A DNA stretch of 64,000 nt from Deltaproteobacteria bacterium. Its GTDB lineage: Bacteria; Myxococcota; XYA12-FULL-58-9. The stretch's first letter is position 1. Each line of letters starts with the position of its first letter. Where the stretch lies: contig JACRCV010000091.1 in the NCBI GenBank assembly GCA_016218825.1, forward strand, positions 124,001 to 188,000, written 5' to 3'. Below the pieces are notes generated by a model. The model had not been told where the DNA came from. It saw nothing but the letters and a program-made list of their open reading frames with translations, and searched no databases. Shown here piece by piece: positions 11,551 to 18,227 of this stretch. The position numbers were made by a program, and so were the translations under genes.

Positions 11551-12102
11551 CTAACCGGGTGGACGGCGCCAGCCGGTGAGGCGGTACAGCACCCCGGCGT
11601 CGCGGTCGGCGAGCGCGGCGAGCAGCGCGCCCGCGCTTCTGCCGGTGTTCGGCACCGGCACTTCGGGATCGAGCTCGCACAGCGGCCGCAGGACGAAGGC
11701 GCGCCGCACGATCTCGGGATGCGGCACCACCAGCCCCGGCTCGTGGATGACGCGGTCGCCGTAGAGCAGGAGATCGAGATCGAGCGGCCGCGAACGCCAG
11801 CGCTCACCCCGCTCGCGGCCACCCTCGGCCTCGAGCGCGAGCAGCAGCTCGAGCAACGCGCGCGGCGAGAGCCGGGTCGTCGCCCGCGCGACGCTGTTCC
11901 AGTAATCGGGCACGTCTTCGTTGCAGCCCTCGGGCACGACCGCCGCGGTGCGAAACGCGGCCGCGACCTCTTCGACCTCGACGCCGCGGCTGCCGAGGGC
12001 CGCGAGCGCGACCCGGAACGCCTGCAGCACGTCCCCGAGGTTGCCGCCGAGGCCGATGTAGACCGTCACCGGCGCCGGCGCTTCTCCGACCGCTGTTGGC
12101 AC
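11551..12102 (-). CDS. folK: 2-amino-4-hydroxy-6-hydroxymethyldihydropteridine diphosphokinase
   Basis: Transfers pyrophosphate from ATP to 6-hydroxymethyl-7,8-dihydropterin, a cytoplasmic step in folate synthesis. The 183-residue protein has the family order: VYIGLGGNLGD at the start, RSRPLDLDLLLYGD in the middle (with the metal-binding Asp pair) and VVPHPEIVRRAFVLRPL near the C-terminal third. The start is a GTG. The gene begins nine bases after dapB and is probably the last gene of the LKR-SDH-dapB-folK transcription unit, followed by a strong hairpin. The C-terminal ~40 residues continue past the usual core. Confidence 0.93.
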   Translation of the reverse strand: MPTAVGEAPAPVTVYIGLGGNLGDVLQAFRVALAALGSRGVEVEEVAAAFRTAAVVPEGCNEDVPDYWNSVARATTRLSPRALLELLLALEAEGGRERGERWRSRPLDLDLLLYGDRVIHEPGLVVPHPEIVRRAFVLRPLCELDPEVPVPNTGRSAGALLAALADRDAGVLYRLTGWRRPPG

Positions 12103-12111
12103 CCGCGACCC

Positions 12112-12906
12112 CTATGCCGGCGGCTTGGCGCGGCCGACGACGTCCCGCATCCCGTAGAGCCCGGGCGGCGCCTGCCGCAGCCAGTCCATCGCGGTGAGGG
12201 CGCCCTGCGCGAAGATCACCGACGAGCTCGCCCGATGCGTGAGCTCGAGCCGCTCCCCGTGCCCCAAGAACAACACCGTGTGCTCGCCGGCGACGTCGCC
12301 GCCGCGAACCGCCGCGACCCCGAGCGCGGACGCCGACCGCGGCCCGGTGATCCCGTGACGCGAGTGCTCTTCGACCAGCTCCGGCCGGGCCTCGCGCACC
12401 GCCGCCGCGAGCGCCAGCGCCGTGCCGGAGGGCGCATCCTTCTTGTGCTTGTGGTGCAGCTCGACGAGCTCGACGTCGAAGCCCGCGCCGAGTCGACGCG
12501 CCGCGGCGCCGACGAGCTCCAAGAGCACGTTGACGCCGATGCTCAAGTTCGCGGCCGCGAGCACCGGAATCGCCGCCGCGGCTCTGGCGAGGGCTTCCTG
12601 ATCCGCGGCGCCGAGCGCCGTCGAGCCCACGAGGTACGGCAAGCCCAGCGCCGCGCAGCGCGCCGCCACGATCGTGCAGGCCGCCGGGGCCGCGAAGTCA
12701 ATCACCCCGTCCACCCCACCGAAGGCGACGCTCAGATCGGCGGTGACCAGCACCCCGTCCAGGGCCGGCTGCGGCACCACGCCGGCGCGCTCGACGCCGG
12801 TGACGACGACGTAGCGGCCGTCCGCGCGGCAGACGTCGACGAGCTGCCGCCCCATCCGACCGGCGACCCCGATGACGCACAGACGCGTGGGCCGGGCGGC
12901 GCTCAC
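12112..12906 (-). CDS. dapB: 4-hydroxy-tetrahydrodipicolinate reductase
   Basis: NAD(P)H-dependent reductase of the diaminopimelate/lysine pathway. The 264-residue protein starts with a Rossmann nucleotide-binding motif (VIGVAGRMGRQL), has the cofactor-domain segment VDGVIDFAAP and carries the hallmark catalytic motif ELHHKHKKDAPSGTAL (His-His-x-x-Lys-x-Asp-x-Pro-Ser-Gly-Thr-Ala). The start is a GTG with a weak ribosome-binding site. It sits 43 bases after the saccharopine dehydrogenase gene and just before folK. A lysine-biosynthesis gene in the same unit as lysine-degradation enzymes is unexpected. Confidence 0.95.
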   Translation of the reverse strand: MSAARPTRLCVIGVAGRMGRQLVDVCRADGRYVVVTGVERAGVVPQPALDGVLVTADLSVAFGGVDGVIDFAAPAACTIVAARCAALGLPYLVGSTALGAADQEALARAAAAIPVLAAANLSIGVNVLLELVGAAARRLGAGFDVELVELHHKHKKDAPSGTALALAAAVREARPELVEEHSRHGITGPRSASALGVAAVRGGDVAGEHTVLFLGHGERLELTHRASSSVIFAQGALTAMDWLRQAPPGLYGMRDVVGRAKPPA

Positions 12907-12949: not shown

Positions 12950-14269
12950 TCACAGCGCCTCGCGCTTCTCTTTGCACTCTATGCCGAGATGCGCGAGCTC
13001 GTCGAGGATCGGCAGGTAGAGCTCGGGAATGAGCGGCCGCAACACCCCGGTCGCCTCGAGCCGCCCCTCGAGGAGCATGCGGGCGCTGATCGCCGCCGGC
13101 AGCGACACGGTGCGCGCCATCGACGAATCGCCGCGCTTCTGCCCGAAGTCGACGAGCGTCGAGGTGACGCGCTCGCGCGCGCCGCGCTCGCCCTCGATGC
13201 GGAAGTCGTGGACCATCACCAGCATGTCGCGCTCGCCGGGGCGGTAGCTGAGCTTCTCGATCATCAGGTGCGCGAGGGCGTCGAGCGGCGAGATCTGCGG
13301 CGCGCTCAGGCGCCGGTCGCCGAGCATCCCCAGCCAGCGGAGCGCGGTGACCGGCAGCGCCAGCGGGTGGATCCCGAGCCGCGCCGCGACCGCCGCCGCC
13401 AGCGCCTGCCGCGGCTTGATCCCGAGCACCTTGCGCAACAGCCAGCTGTAGGTCTTGCCGCGCGCCCGGTGCAGGTCGAGCTCGAGGAGGCCGAGCTTGC
13501 GGAAGCTGTAGAAGATGTCGCACCAGCCGACGTTGCGCAGCGTGCCGCGGAACATCGTGTCGATGCCGTTCAAGCCGTAGGCGTCGATGTAGGCGATCGA
13601 ATCGCGGTTCGGATAGGCCTCGAAGAAGCCGACGCCTTCGACCGGGAACATCTGCATGTCGCGGAACAGATCCGCCGGCGGGACGTCGACGCGGCGACCG
13701 TCCAAGAGATAGCTGGCGCCGTTGCGCGCCGCGAGCAGCACGCCGCGCGGCGCCCACGAGAACTTGTAGCCGAAGGGGTTGTCGTTGGCCTCCGGCGCCG
13801 GCAGGCCGCCGCAGTACGAGCGGAACGCCACCACCTTGGCGCGGCGTTTGCGGGCGGCGTCGATGACCCGCATCGCCGACATGTGATCGATCCCGGGATC
13901 GACGCCGACCTCGTTGACGAGCGCGACGCCGGCGGCGCGCGCCGCTCTGTCGTGCTCCTGCATCGCCGGGGAGACGTACGAGGTGGTCACCATGTGCTTG
14001 CGATGCGCGACGCAGTGCTTGGCGACCGCGGGGTGATAGCCGAAGGGCAGCAAGCTCACCGTCAGATCGGCGTCCGCCACCATGGCGCCGAGCGCGGCGT
14101 CGTCCTCGACGTTCAAGTACACCGCGCGGCCGTGCGGCCGGTTGCCGACCAGCGCCCGGGCGCGGTCGACGAGCAAGGTCGCGACCACGACCTCGATCTT
14201 GGCGTCGAGCAGGTAACGGATCAGCGGCCCGGCGACCAGACCCGAGCCCAACACCAACACCCGTTTCAT
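12950..14269 (-). CDS. Saccharopine dehydrogenase, AASS C-terminal-domain type
   Basis: The 439-residue protein matches, from end to end, the saccharopine dehydrogenase half of the bifunctional animal/plant enzyme AASS (LKR/SDH). Shared features are a Rossmann start VLVLGSGLVAGPLIRYL, LTVSLLPFGYHPAVAK, VTTSYVSPAM, GVDPGIDHM, SYCGGLPAPEANDNP and YKFSWAPRGVL. It would oxidise saccharopine to glutamate and aminoadipate semialdehyde. GAGGAGGT precedes the ATG. The partner lysine-ketoglutarate reductase is encoded only 25 bases upstream on the same strand, so the two activities fused in eukaryotes are adjacent genes here. Direction and cofactor (NAD+) are inferred from the family. Confidence 0.9.
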   Translation of the reverse strand: MKRVLVLGSGLVAGPLIRYLLDAKIEVVVATLLVDRARALVGNRPHGRAVYLNVEDDAALGAMVADADLTVSLLPFGYHPAVAKHCVAHRKHMVTTSYVSPAMQEHDRAARAAGVALVNEVGVDPGIDHMSAMRVIDAARKRRAKVVAFRSYCGGLPAPEANDNPFGYKFSWAPRGVLLAARNGASYLLDGRRVDVPPADLFRDMQMFPVEGVGFFEAYPNRDSIAYIDAYGLNGIDTMFRGTLRNVGWCDIFYSFRKLGLLELDLHRARGKTYSWLLRKVLGIKPRQALAAAVAARLGIHPLALPVTALRWLGMLGDRRLSAPQISPLDALAHLMIEKLSYRPGERDMLVMVHDFRIEGERGARERVTSTLVDFGQKRGDSSMARTVSLPAAISARMLLEGRLEATGVLRPLIPELYLPILDELAHLGIECKEKREAL

Positions 14270-14294
14270 CAGACCTCCTCGGGCGGCCGGCGGC

Positions 14295-15626
14295 TCAGCG
14301 GCGCGCGCGCGCGCGCTCGAGGTGCAAGCGCAGGTAGTGAAACCTCGGCGTCAGCGCACCGCGGTGCACGACCACCGCCCGCTTCAACGCGTCCGGCAGG
14401 TCGAGCGCGTCGAAGTCGACCGACCAGTCGGCCGCCGCCATGTCGGCGACGAAGCCGAAGAGCATCTCGCTGAAGTGCTCCGACGCCTCGCGCGGCAGCT
14501 CGCACGGCAGGTTGTCGACCGCGAGGATGACCGGGCCGTCGCCTTCGACCCCGAGCGCCACCTGGTCGGTCGCCGGATCGTAGACGTAGCACGGCGCCTC
14601 GGGCTCGGCGGCGTGCAAGTTGACCTCGATGCTGCCCTCGGTGTCGCAGCTGATGTCGCCGATGACCCGCAGCCGCGGCCGCTTGCCCTTGCCGTAGGTG
14701 CGCTTGACCCAGTCGCGGGTCACGAGGCGCGGGTAGCGCGACTCCCAGTAGATGGTGTTCACCAGCACGTCGAGGTGCGGCAGGTGGCGCTCGAAGGTGC
14801 CGCGGTAGCGCTCCGGGTGTTGATAATAGTCAGCCAGCTCGAAGCGCGTGCCGGCCGTGGTCGGCTCGACCATGTCGCTCTCTTTGAAGATCACCTTGAT
14901 GAACGGCGCCGACGGGCTCGACACCTGGGCCGCGGCGTCCGGCAGGTCCGCGACCTCGCACTCCGAGACCGGCAGGCAGTCGAGGATCTCCTGACAGCCG
15001 CGCGACACGTTGCCGTAGCCCGAGATCCCGATCACCAGCGGCCCGACCCGCTCGTCCGGCCGCTGCCGCAACATCTGCCCGCCCACCTGCTTCAGATGGG
15101 CGCGGGCGTCGGCGAGATCGCGGTACTCGTAGGCGCGCCGCACCTCGGCGAGCGGCGTCACCAGGCCGTCGTGCCGCAGCCTCTGCCCCAGGCACCAGAG
15201 GGTGTCGATCATCCCGGCGTGGCCGGCGTCGACCCCGAAGAACACCAGGCGGCGGTTGCCGGCGTCGGTGATCTTCTCGTAGTCGACGAGCGTGCAGCCG
15301 AGCTCCAAGAGACGCTCGAGCATCGGCATGTTGTGCGCCTGGCCCTTGATCACGTGCGCGAAGAACACGTAGGTCGTACCGCGCTCGAAGAGCGCCAGCG
15401 GCACCTCTTTGACCGCGATCACCACCGACGCCGGGCTCAGGTCCTCGCTGACCTCGGCGCCCTTGGCGTGGTACTCGTCGTCGGTAAATACCCGGATCGG
15501 CGACGGCTGCACGATCACCCGCGCCCCGGTGCGCTCTCTGAGCCGCGCCACGGCGTCCGGCGACAGCGGCACGCGCCGCTCCCATTTGTTCTTATCTTCT
15601 CTGCGGATACCAATGACGGCGGCCAC
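14295..15626 (-). CDS. Lysine-ketoglutarate reductase, AASS N-terminal-domain type
   Basis: The 443-residue protein corresponds to the lysine:2-oxoglutarate reductase half of AASS, which condenses lysine with 2-oxoglutarate into saccharopine. Diagnostic stretches are GIRREDKNKWERRVPLSP (AlaDH/PNT-type N-domain), LVDYEKITDAGNRRLVFFG, ISGYGNVSRGCQEILD (Rossmann part), YYQHPERY, NTIYWESRYPRL, GDISCDTEGSIE and DNLPCELPREASEHF. The frame is open far upstream, but the GTG used is preceded by GAGGG at good spacing and starts exactly where the homology starts. It is probably the first gene of the unit with SDH, dapB and folK. Confidence 0.9.
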   Translation of the reverse strand: MAAVIGIRREDKNKWERRVPLSPDAVARLRERTGARVIVQPSPIRVFTDDEYHAKGAEVSEDLSPASVVIAVKEVPLALFERGTTYVFFAHVIKGQAHNMPMLERLLELGCTLVDYEKITDAGNRRLVFFGVDAGHAGMIDTLWCLGQRLRHDGLVTPLAEVRRAYEYRDLADARAHLKQVGGQMLRQRPDERVGPLVIGISGYGNVSRGCQEILDCLPVSECEVADLPDAAAQVSSPSAPFIKVIFKESDMVEPTTAGTRFELADYYQHPERYRGTFERHLPHLDVLVNTIYWESRYPRLVTRDWVKRTYGKGKRPRLRVIGDISCDTEGSIEVNLHAAEPEAPCYVYDPATDQVALGVEGDGPVILAVDNLPCELPREASEHFSEMLFGFVADMAAADWSVDFDALDLPDALKRAVVVHRGALTPRFHYLRLHLERARARR

Positions 15627-15760: not shown

Positions 15761-16453
15761 TCAGACGCCGCGTTGGCGCGCGCCGTACAGGATCTTGTGC
15801 AGCTGCAGCTGCAGGCGCACCGGCAGGCGGTCCTCGAGGATCCACGCCGCGAGCAGCTCCGGCGCCAAGGCGCCGTGCACCGCGCCGAAGAGCACGGTGC
15901 AGCGCTCGTCGAGGCGGTGCTCGCGCACCAGGCGCCGCGCCCACTCGTAGTCACCGCGGCCGGCGAGCACCAGCTTGAGCTCGTCGGTCTTCGCGAGCCG
16001 CTCGAGGTTCTGCATCCGGTTGCGGCGGGCTTCGCCCGAGGACGGCGCCTTCAGATCGACGATCTTGACGACGCGCGGATCGACGGCCGCGAGCTCGAGG
16101 CTGCCGTTGGTCTCGAGCAGCACCGTCAGCCCGGCGTCGCACAACCGGCTGAGCAGCACCGGCACCGCCGGCTGCAACAGCGGCTCGCCCCCGGTCACCT
16201 CGATGAGCGGCAGGCCGAGCGCCGACAGACGGCTCATGACCGCGTCGACGCTCAGCCGCGCGCCGCCCTCGTAAGCATAGGTGGTGTCGCAGTAGGTGCA
16301 GCGCAGGTTGCAGCCGGTGACGCGCACGAAGCCGCACGGCCGGCCGGCGTAGGTCGACTCGCCTTGGATCGACGCGAAGATCTCGCTGACCAGGAGAGTA
16401 TCCGGCGGCAAATCACAGAGCGGCCGGAGCCGCGCTTGCCTGGTTCGAGACAT
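15761..16453 (-). CDS. queE: 7-carboxy-7-deazaguanine synthase (radical SAM)
   Basis: Converts 6-carboxytetrahydropterin to 7-carboxy-7-deazaguanine in the queuosine/7-deazapurine pathway. The 230-residue protein has the radical SAM motif C48-x3-C52-x2-C55 (CNLRCTYCDT), preceded by the QueE signature SEIFASIQGESTYAGRPCGFVRVTGC. The SAM-binding VTGGEPLLQ and VLLETNGS follow. The ATG is placed where the homology begins. It lies 134 bases upstream of the lysine-ketoglutarate reductase gene, same strand, and diverges from the nucleoside kinase with 90 bases between. No other queuosine gene (queC, queD, queF, tgt) is in the window. Confidence 0.92.
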   Translation of the reverse strand: MSRTRQARLRPLCDLPPDTLLVSEIFASIQGESTYAGRPCGFVRVTGCNLRCTYCDTTYAYEGGARLSVDAVMSRLSALGLPLIEVTGGEPLLQPAVPVLLSRLCDAGLTVLLETNGSLELAAVDPRVVKIVDLKAPSSGEARRNRMQNLERLAKTDELKLVLAGRGDYEWARRLVREHRLDERCTVLFGAVHGALAPELLAAWILEDRLPVRLQLQLHKILYGARQRGV

Positions 16454-16543: not shown

Positions 16544-17170
16544 ATGACCTCCAAGCGCTTCGTCGCGCTCGCCGGCAACATCGGCTCGGGCAAGACCACG
16601 GTGGCGAAGCTCGTGAGCCGGCGCTTCGGTTACGAGCTCTTCGACGAGCCGGTGATCGACAATCGCTTCCTGCGCCACTACTACGGCGACATGCGGCGCT
16701 GGTCGTTCACGCTGCAGCTGGAGTTCCTGATCAAGCGCGTCCAGCACCACGAGCTCATCCAAACGGTGCCGAAGAGCTGCATCCAGGACCGGACGCTGAT
16801 CGAGGACCCCGAGATCTTCGCCAAGTACCTGCACGGCCTCGGGCACATGACCGACGACGAGCTCCAGCTCTACCTGGAATACTTCGAGCGCTTGAACCGC
16901 GGCGTCCGCCAGCCGGATCGGGTGATCTACCTGCAGTGCCACGACACCGAGACCCTGTTGAAGCGCATCGGCGCTCGGGGCCGCAAGGAAGAGGCGGGCA
17001 TCGGCGGCGACTTTCTCGCCGGCCTGAACGGTTACTACCTGGCGCTGCCGGCGGTGCTGAAGTCGAAGTACGGCATCGACACCATGATCTTCGACGTGAC
17101 CCACTTCGACGTCCACGACGCCGCGCAGGCCGACGCCTTCCTGGCGCTCGCCGAGGCCTTCTTGCGCTGA
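16544..17170 (+). CDS. Deoxynucleoside kinase family protein
   Basis: A 208-residue P-loop kinase of the dCK/dGK/TK2-like family, which phosphorylates deoxynucleosides for salvage in the cytoplasm. Visible are the P-loop GNIGSGKT (residues 11-18), the substrate-binding FDEPVIDNRFL, the DR motif in QDRTLIEDPEIF and a lid-type Arg segment (KRIGARGRKEE). The family's usual length is 200-240 residues. It is divergent from queE and followed 34 bases later by the lysine-dehydrogenase-like gene. The exact nucleoside used cannot be read from sequence. Confidence 0.88.
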   Translation: MTSKRFVALAGNIGSGKTTVAKLVSRRFGYELFDEPVIDNRFLRHYYGDMRRWSFTLQLEFLIKRVQHHELIQTVPKSCIQDRTLIEDPEIFAKYLHGLGHMTDDELQLYLEYFERLNRGVRQPDRVIYLQCHDTETLLKRIGARGRKEEAGIGGDFLAGLNGYYLALPAVLKSKYGIDTMIFDVTHFDVHDAAQADAFLALAEAFLR

Positions 17171-17204: not shown

Positions 17205-18227
17205 ATGGCACGCATCATCGTTCTCGGGGGTGGCCAACAAGGTCGGGTGATCGCAGCTGATCTGGCGCGGCGCCACGAGGTCACGGTGGCCGACGTCCGG
17301 GCGCTGTCGTTGCCGCCGGCGCGCTCGGTCCAGGCCGATCTCGCCGATCCCGCGGTGGTGACGCGCTTGGTCGCGGCGCACGATCTGGCGGTCGGAGCGC
17401 TGCCGGCGCGGCTCGGCTTCGCCGCCGCAAAGAGCGCGATCGCCGCCGGCAGGTCGTACGTCGACGTGGCGTTCTTCGCCGAGGACGTCGCGGCGTTGGA
17501 CGCGGCCGCGAAGCGCGCCAAGGTGGCGATCCTCCCCGACTGCGGCCTGGCGCCCGGCATCTCCAACCTCGTCGTCGGGCGGGCGCTGGCGCAAGGGCCG
17601 CGGCGCGAGATCTGCATCGAGGTCGGCGGCGTCGCCGCCGACAAGAGCAAGCCCTACGGCTACGTCGTCACCTGGTCGCCCGAAGACCTCGCCGACGAGT
17701 TCAAGCGCCCGGCGCGCATCATCCGCGGCGGCAAGGTGGTGTCGTTGCCGGCGACCTCCGAGCTCGAGCGGGTGGAGATCGACGGCGTCGGCACGATGGA
17801 GTCCTTCCTCACCGACGGCCTGCGCACCCTGTTGGCGCTCGAGGGCGTCACCGAGATGACCGAGAAGACCCTGCGCTGGCCGGGCCACGTCGAGGCGGTG
17901 CGGCCGCTGGTCAAAGACGGGACGTTCGCGAAGACAATGACCGAGCGCTGCAGAGACGGCCTCGACCTGGTGGTGTTTCGCATCCGCGTCGACGGCGAGC
18001 AGGTGCTGATGGTGGTCGAGGGCCGGCCGGAGATCTCGGCGATGGCGCGCACCACCGCGCTGACCACCGCGGCGTTCGCCCACTACGCCGCGACCACCGC
18101 CATCGGCGCCCACGGGGTGTTGCCGCCGGAACAGATCGGCCGCGACCCGGTCGCCTACAAGACCATCCTCGACGCGCTCGCCCTGCACGAGATCTTGTTG
18201 TCACCGCGCTACCCGTTCCTCGGCTGA
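17205..18227 (+). CDS. Lysine-6-dehydrogenase-like / saccharopine dehydrogenase family
   Basis: A 340-residue protein with an N-terminal Rossmann motif (IIVLGGGQQGRVIAADL), VDVAFFAED, and the family segment ILPDCGLAPGISNLV, followed by ARIIRGGKVVSLPATSELE and TLRWPGHVEAVRPL. This order matches lysine 6-dehydrogenases of the Geobacillus type better than saccharopine dehydrogenases from fungi; both belong to one superfamily. The predicted reaction is NAD-dependent oxidation at the epsilon-amino group of lysine or a close relative. GAGGGAG lies just before the ATG. It is the third saccharopine-family gene within 5.3 kb, on the opposite strand to the LKR/SDH pair. Confidence 0.8.
   Translation: MARIIVLGGGQQGRVIAADLARRHEVTVADVRALSLPPARSVQADLADPAVVTRLVAAHDLAVGALPARLGFAAAKSAIAAGRSYVDVAFFAEDVAALDAAAKRAKVAILPDCGLAPGISNLVVGRALAQGPRREICIEVGGVAADKSKPYGYVVTWSPEDLADEFKRPARIIRGGKVVSLPATSELERVEIDGVGTMESFLTDGLRTLLALEGVTEMTEKTLRWPGHVEAVRPLVKDGTFAKTMTERCRDGLDLVVFRIRVDGEQVLMVVEGRPEISAMARTTALTTAAFAHYAATTAIGAHGVLPPEQIGRDPVAYKTILDALALHEILLSPRYPFLG

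Follow-up and report, generated by a model that had tools for sequence, protein, structure and literature searches.

The minus strand of the window, by which we mean the whole 64,000-nt stretch analysed, carries a row of genes in which two predicted enzymes of the saccharopine pathway stand next to genes of lysine and folate biosynthesis. The gene at 14295..15626, which starts with GTG, encodes a putative lysine-ketoglutarate reductase (LKR, saccharopine-forming) of 443 aa, with matches to PF05222 (84 bits) and PF01262 (33 bits), and that at 12950..14269 a putative saccharopine dehydrogenase (SDH, glutamate-forming) of 439 aa, with matches to PF16653 (271 bits) and PF03435 (67 bits). They are followed on the same strand by dapB (12112..12906), for the 4-hydroxy-tetrahydrodipicolinate reductase of lysine biosynthesis (TIGR00036, 198 bits against a cut-off of 122), and by folK (11551..12102), for the HPPK of folate biosynthesis (TIGR01498, 117 bits, cut-off 54). 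A sequence-only reading of this DNA had placed LKR first and SDH 25 bases behind it, in the order of the halves in the eukaryotic fusion, with dapB and folK next at 43 and 9 bases; the coordinates confirm the former arrangement, and coordinates together with curated models the latter. That reading had passed over a queE-like gene for a 7-carboxy-7-deazaguanine synthase (15761..16453, minus strand; TIGR04349, 283 bits, slightly below the cut-off of 300), which lies upstream of LKR across a 134-base gap. A promoter scan returned no sigma-70 match, and a scan against Rfam found no RNA family at threshold, hence recognised no lysine riboswitch.

On the plus strand, a divergent deoxynucleoside kinase gene (16544..17170; PF01712, 136 bits), 71–89% identical in relatives, serves as a synteny anchor. 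Beyond it lies a gene for a lysine-6-dehydrogenase-like protein (17205..18227, plus strand), with a full-length match of 175 bits to 3abi (PH1688), the L-lysine 6-dehydrogenase of P. horikoshii (PMC10413350). The protein is without the His-Glu-Glu triad of carboxyspermidine dehydrogenase (PMC10413350), and a gene about 55% identical to it adjoins the same row in two relatives (G002 and G004, below). Judging by these resemblances, its product is a candidate for a third lysine-to-AASA (2-aminoadipate semialdehyde) enzyme in one neighbourhood.

The likeness of the two minus-strand proteins to the halves of eukaryotic AASS extends over their full lengths, as had been claimed, and the catalytic residues are kept. 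Residues 3–440 of LKR, its whole length, align with the LKR domain of human AASS (8dda) at 243 bits, as against a weak likeness of 56 bits to yeast Lys1, and a domain-profile search detected both the N and C domains of the AlaDh/PNT type. SDH, with its Sacchrp_dh_NADP and Sacchrp_dh_C domains, is matched in full length, scoring 326 bits with the saccharopine reductase of Magnaporthe, 320 bits over residues 2–430 with the human SDH domain and 314 bits with the yeast enzyme; NCBIfam holds no model that matched either protein. The catalytic residues K93 and H111 of human LKR (PMC13174811) correspond to K73 and H91 in the alignment, the nicotinamide site A154-G155 (PMC9490328) to A134-G135, and the latch K114/D358 to K94/D328, all of them invariant in 92 prokaryotic sequences. 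Human R267, which contacts the 2'-phosphate of NADPH, is replaced by K248, a position taken by K or R in 77 of the 92. In SDH, 38 near-invariant positions, among them Y98, D124, N221 and R222, are common to the human, yeast and Magnaporthe enzymes. It has to be considered that the pair acts on another amine and keto acid and that the lysine label is wrong, the more so as enzymes with the saccharopine dehydrogenase fold are often misannotated, carboxyspermidine dehydrogenase being one example (PMC10413350). We regard this as highly improbable, given that both halves match characterised enzymes over their full lengths and keep every catalytic residue tested, and that relatives of the pair travel with genes for AASA/P6C dehydrogenase and L-lysine 6-transaminase (LAT).

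The pair shares with the bifunctional AASS of humans and plants the two predicted activities, the order of the halves and the catalytic residues, and differs from it in being encoded as two polypeptides by two genes, as well as in the exchange of R267 for K248. A stop codon lies between LKR and SDH, whose frames differ (1357 bases from start to start), so that they are not a single gene split by one stop codon. Nor is such an arrangement rare. Among 80 loci found in a genome collection with the window LKR as the query, SDH adjoins LKR in 67, directly after it in 62 and directly before it in 5; of the remainder, 9 were too short to judge and 4 had no SDH nearby. The LKR loci sampled include Acidobacteriota, Krumholzibacteriota, Zixibacteria, Aminicenantes, Elusimicrobia, Chloroflexota and Thermoplasmatota, and in 15 loci of other lineages SDH is directly followed by an AASA/P6C dehydrogenase gene. 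A search of plasmids with LKR gave distant or partial matches only. In two loci of Desulfocapsa type (L099:13-2501 and L100:521-2864), two tandem SDH-like genes lie upstream of LKR, the reverse of the usual order.

The LKR and SDH of the saccharopine pathway were reportedly described from bacteria by Serrano et al. in 2012 (FEBS Lett 586:905, doi 10.1016/j.febslet.2012.02.023) and by Neshich et al. in 2013 (ISME J). With the pair present in many phyla and bacterial representatives reported since 2012, adjacent LKR and SDH are an ordinary prokaryotic module of an already known kind. Like the genes of those reports, the pair in the window consists of bacterial genes for lysine degradation; it differs from them in its linkage to dapB and folK, in its occurrence in Myxococcota and in having no P6C dehydrogenase gene in the row. 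Both proteins have their closest sequence relatives in Krumholzibacteriota and Terriglobia, in rows of LKR, SDH and P6C dehydrogenase (L021, L022, L025, L056 and others) that, unlike the row in the window, hold a gene for every step to aminoadipate. In three Terriglobia loci (L022:8001-10697, L031:8001-10694 and L035:1268-3955) LKR runs into SDH in one uninterrupted frame of some 896–899 codons, and close relatives of these keep a stop between the two genes. Such stop-free frames are of more direct relevance to the way in which a fusion can come about.

In phylogenetic trees, both proteins group with those of Krumholzibacteriota and Terriglobia (SH-aLRT 99–100), and neither branches in a different saccharopine-reductase family. 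Grouping with family f8 of the same phylum was rejected by AU tests for both (p of 0.015 and 0.020). Only 14 of the 195 Myxococcota genomes have SDH, and a distribution as patchy as this suggests transfer between bacterial lineages. The loci in the bacterial trees come from searches that used peptides of the window as queries, and the sample leans accordingly to relatives of the window. The sequence-only reading had gone further, suggesting that the pair could illuminate the origin of the fusion or a transfer between bacteria and eukaryotes, and that suggestion found no support: adjacency is common, the identities are unremarkable and the eukaryotes fall outside. The window LKR is 34% identical to human LKR, which puts it 71st among the prokaryotic sequences compared, and the 41% identity of SDH to its human counterpart is about equal to that of several other prokaryotes. 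Human LKR, and human together with fungal SDH, branch on long branches outside all prokaryotic sequences sampled, in trees in which eukaryotes are represented by one animal and two fungal sequences. When the eukaryotes were held with the window or with its group, the arrangement was neither rejected nor supported (AU p 0.19–0.58). A transfer involving this lineage, by which eukaryotic AASS would be either the source of the pair or its descendant, thus seems to us very improbable: the halves do stand in the order of the fusion, and AU tests allow eukaryotes with the window (p 0.19–0.22), but the same gene order occurs in many phyla, many other prokaryotes reach at least the same identity to the human domains and the unconstrained trees put the eukaryotes outside.

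What is unusual about the locus is only its place, the pair being slotted beside dapB where related bacteria keep another lysine-breaking enzyme. The order to which the window genome (G000) belongs is represented by 8 genomes, several of them fragmented, which include one of the same genus (G001), one of the same family (G002) and, at the level of the order, G003, G004, G005 and G007. The same-genus genome (locus L101) has LKR, SDH, dapB and folK in this order too, 53–69% identical and with a single additional gene separating SDH from dapB, a recurrence that rules out an assembly artefact as the origin of the row; among 93 LKR loci, L101 is the only one in which dapB is near LKR. The queE-like gene is the first of the row in the order and keeps its position in G001, G002, G003, G004 and G007. 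Both G001 and G002 have the row queE-LKR-SDH-LAT-like-dapB-folK, interrupted by a contig break inside LKR in G001 and inside the LAT-like gene in G002, where one contig ends in that gene and the dapB after it sits on another. The corresponding rows are queE-LAT-dapB-folK in G007, queE-LAT-dapB in G004 and, in G003, queE, an MFS-transporter-like gene (an identity read from the sequence), a LAT-like gene, dapB and folK. Searches for LKR and SDH in G003, G004 and G007 found neither. In G005 there is an LKR gene (L110:9338-10636), and SDH was not found in that genome. By parsimony on gene order, the queE-LAT-dapB-folK row is older than the LKR-SDH pair, and the link of the pair to dapB is lineage-specific and derived.

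LAT and the pair LKR plus SDH have the same net reaction, by which lysine and 2-oxoglutarate give AASA and glutamate. The L-lysine 6-transaminase (TIGR03251), which in relatives takes the same slot upstream of dapB, is a single PLP enzyme unrelated in sequence to LKR and SDH. The aminotransferase of G004 scores above the cut-off for LAT (574 bits, cut-off 521) and matches the solved L-lysine epsilon aminotransferase 2cin at 418 bits. The position aligned to K300 of 2cin, which we take to be the PLP lysine, is occupied by K in G004, G005 and G007; G001, G002 and G003 have G there. The LAT-like class-III aminotransferases with G at this position (L101:2279-3547 in G001, L162:2-808 and L103:23-454 in G002, L164:8187-9380 in G003) keep long open frames and lie beside dapB in two families; it is possible that they are enzymes of changed function or decaying genes. 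We also considered that the aminotransferase of the row is a DAP aminotransferase, which is less likely, as the copy in G004 scores above the cut-off for LAT, an argument that is weaker for the lysine-less copies; the LL-DAP aminotransferase model TIGR03542 scored above its cut-off in G007 only, and not in the window genome. Outside Myxococcota, six Thermoplasmatota loci have LAT genes, 45–48% identical to that of G004, at distances of about 0.5 to 6 kb from LKR-SDH.

The window genome has LKR-SDH and no LAT-like gene, its class-III aminotransferases being distant, none of them above 128 bits against the LAT model. The same net reaction in the same slot suggests that one route from lysine to AASA replaced another: the LKR-SDH pair would have entered the older row between queE and LAT, and LAT would have lost its catalytic lysine and, in the window genome, have disappeared. 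One order might thus display the stages side by side at the same slot by dapB, namely LAT with its lysine, LKR-SDH together with a lysine-less LAT-like gene, and LKR-SDH alone, a reading that we put forward tentatively, at somewhat less than even odds. In G003 the lysine of LAT has been lost though LKR and SDH are absent, which uncouples this loss from the pair; the succession given here is a tentative one, which fits gene-order parsimony and does not come from a dated tree.

Within the cell, LKR would join lysine and 2-oxoglutarate to saccharopine, SDH would split saccharopine into AASA and glutamate, and an AASA/P6C dehydrogenase encoded elsewhere in the genome would make aminoadipate from AASA. 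The gene for the last of these lies on another contig of the window genome (C63), outside the LKR-SDH row and beside pgk and tpiA (NF050084, 750 bits, cut-off 730); its presence makes lysine degradation to aminoadipate the best reading. The genome also has one copy of dapA, which assigns its lysine synthesis to the DAP route; the joining of the making and breaking of lysine in one unit, as first proposed, is true of the gene order. We infer enzyme activity, direction of flux and co-transcription of the row. The pair could conceivably run backwards, as in fungi, from AASA to lysine, and supplement the DAP route. Its position by a biosynthetic gene would then make sense, and SDH is as near to fungal Lys9 / saccharopine reductase as to human SDH; yet dapA and dapB are present and make a second source of lysine unnecessary, LKR belongs to the AASS type and has little likeness to Lys1, related loci tie the pair to P6C dehydrogenase, and in a relative the degradative LAT occupies the same slot. 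Reverse running is, in our estimation, unlikely to a high degree. We therefore favour, with a probability of roughly 0.83, a bacterial saccharopine module that is predicted to degrade lysine and that would have been inserted secondarily into an older queE-LAT-dapB-folK row.

Split LKR and SDH are, on this evidence, a module common among prokaryotes, at times accompanied by P6C dehydrogenase, and not a rarity that points to the eukaryotic fusion. The locus in the window offers a small, checkable case in which, next to a gene for lysine synthesis, one lysine-degrading route would have supplanted another at its site on the chromosome.
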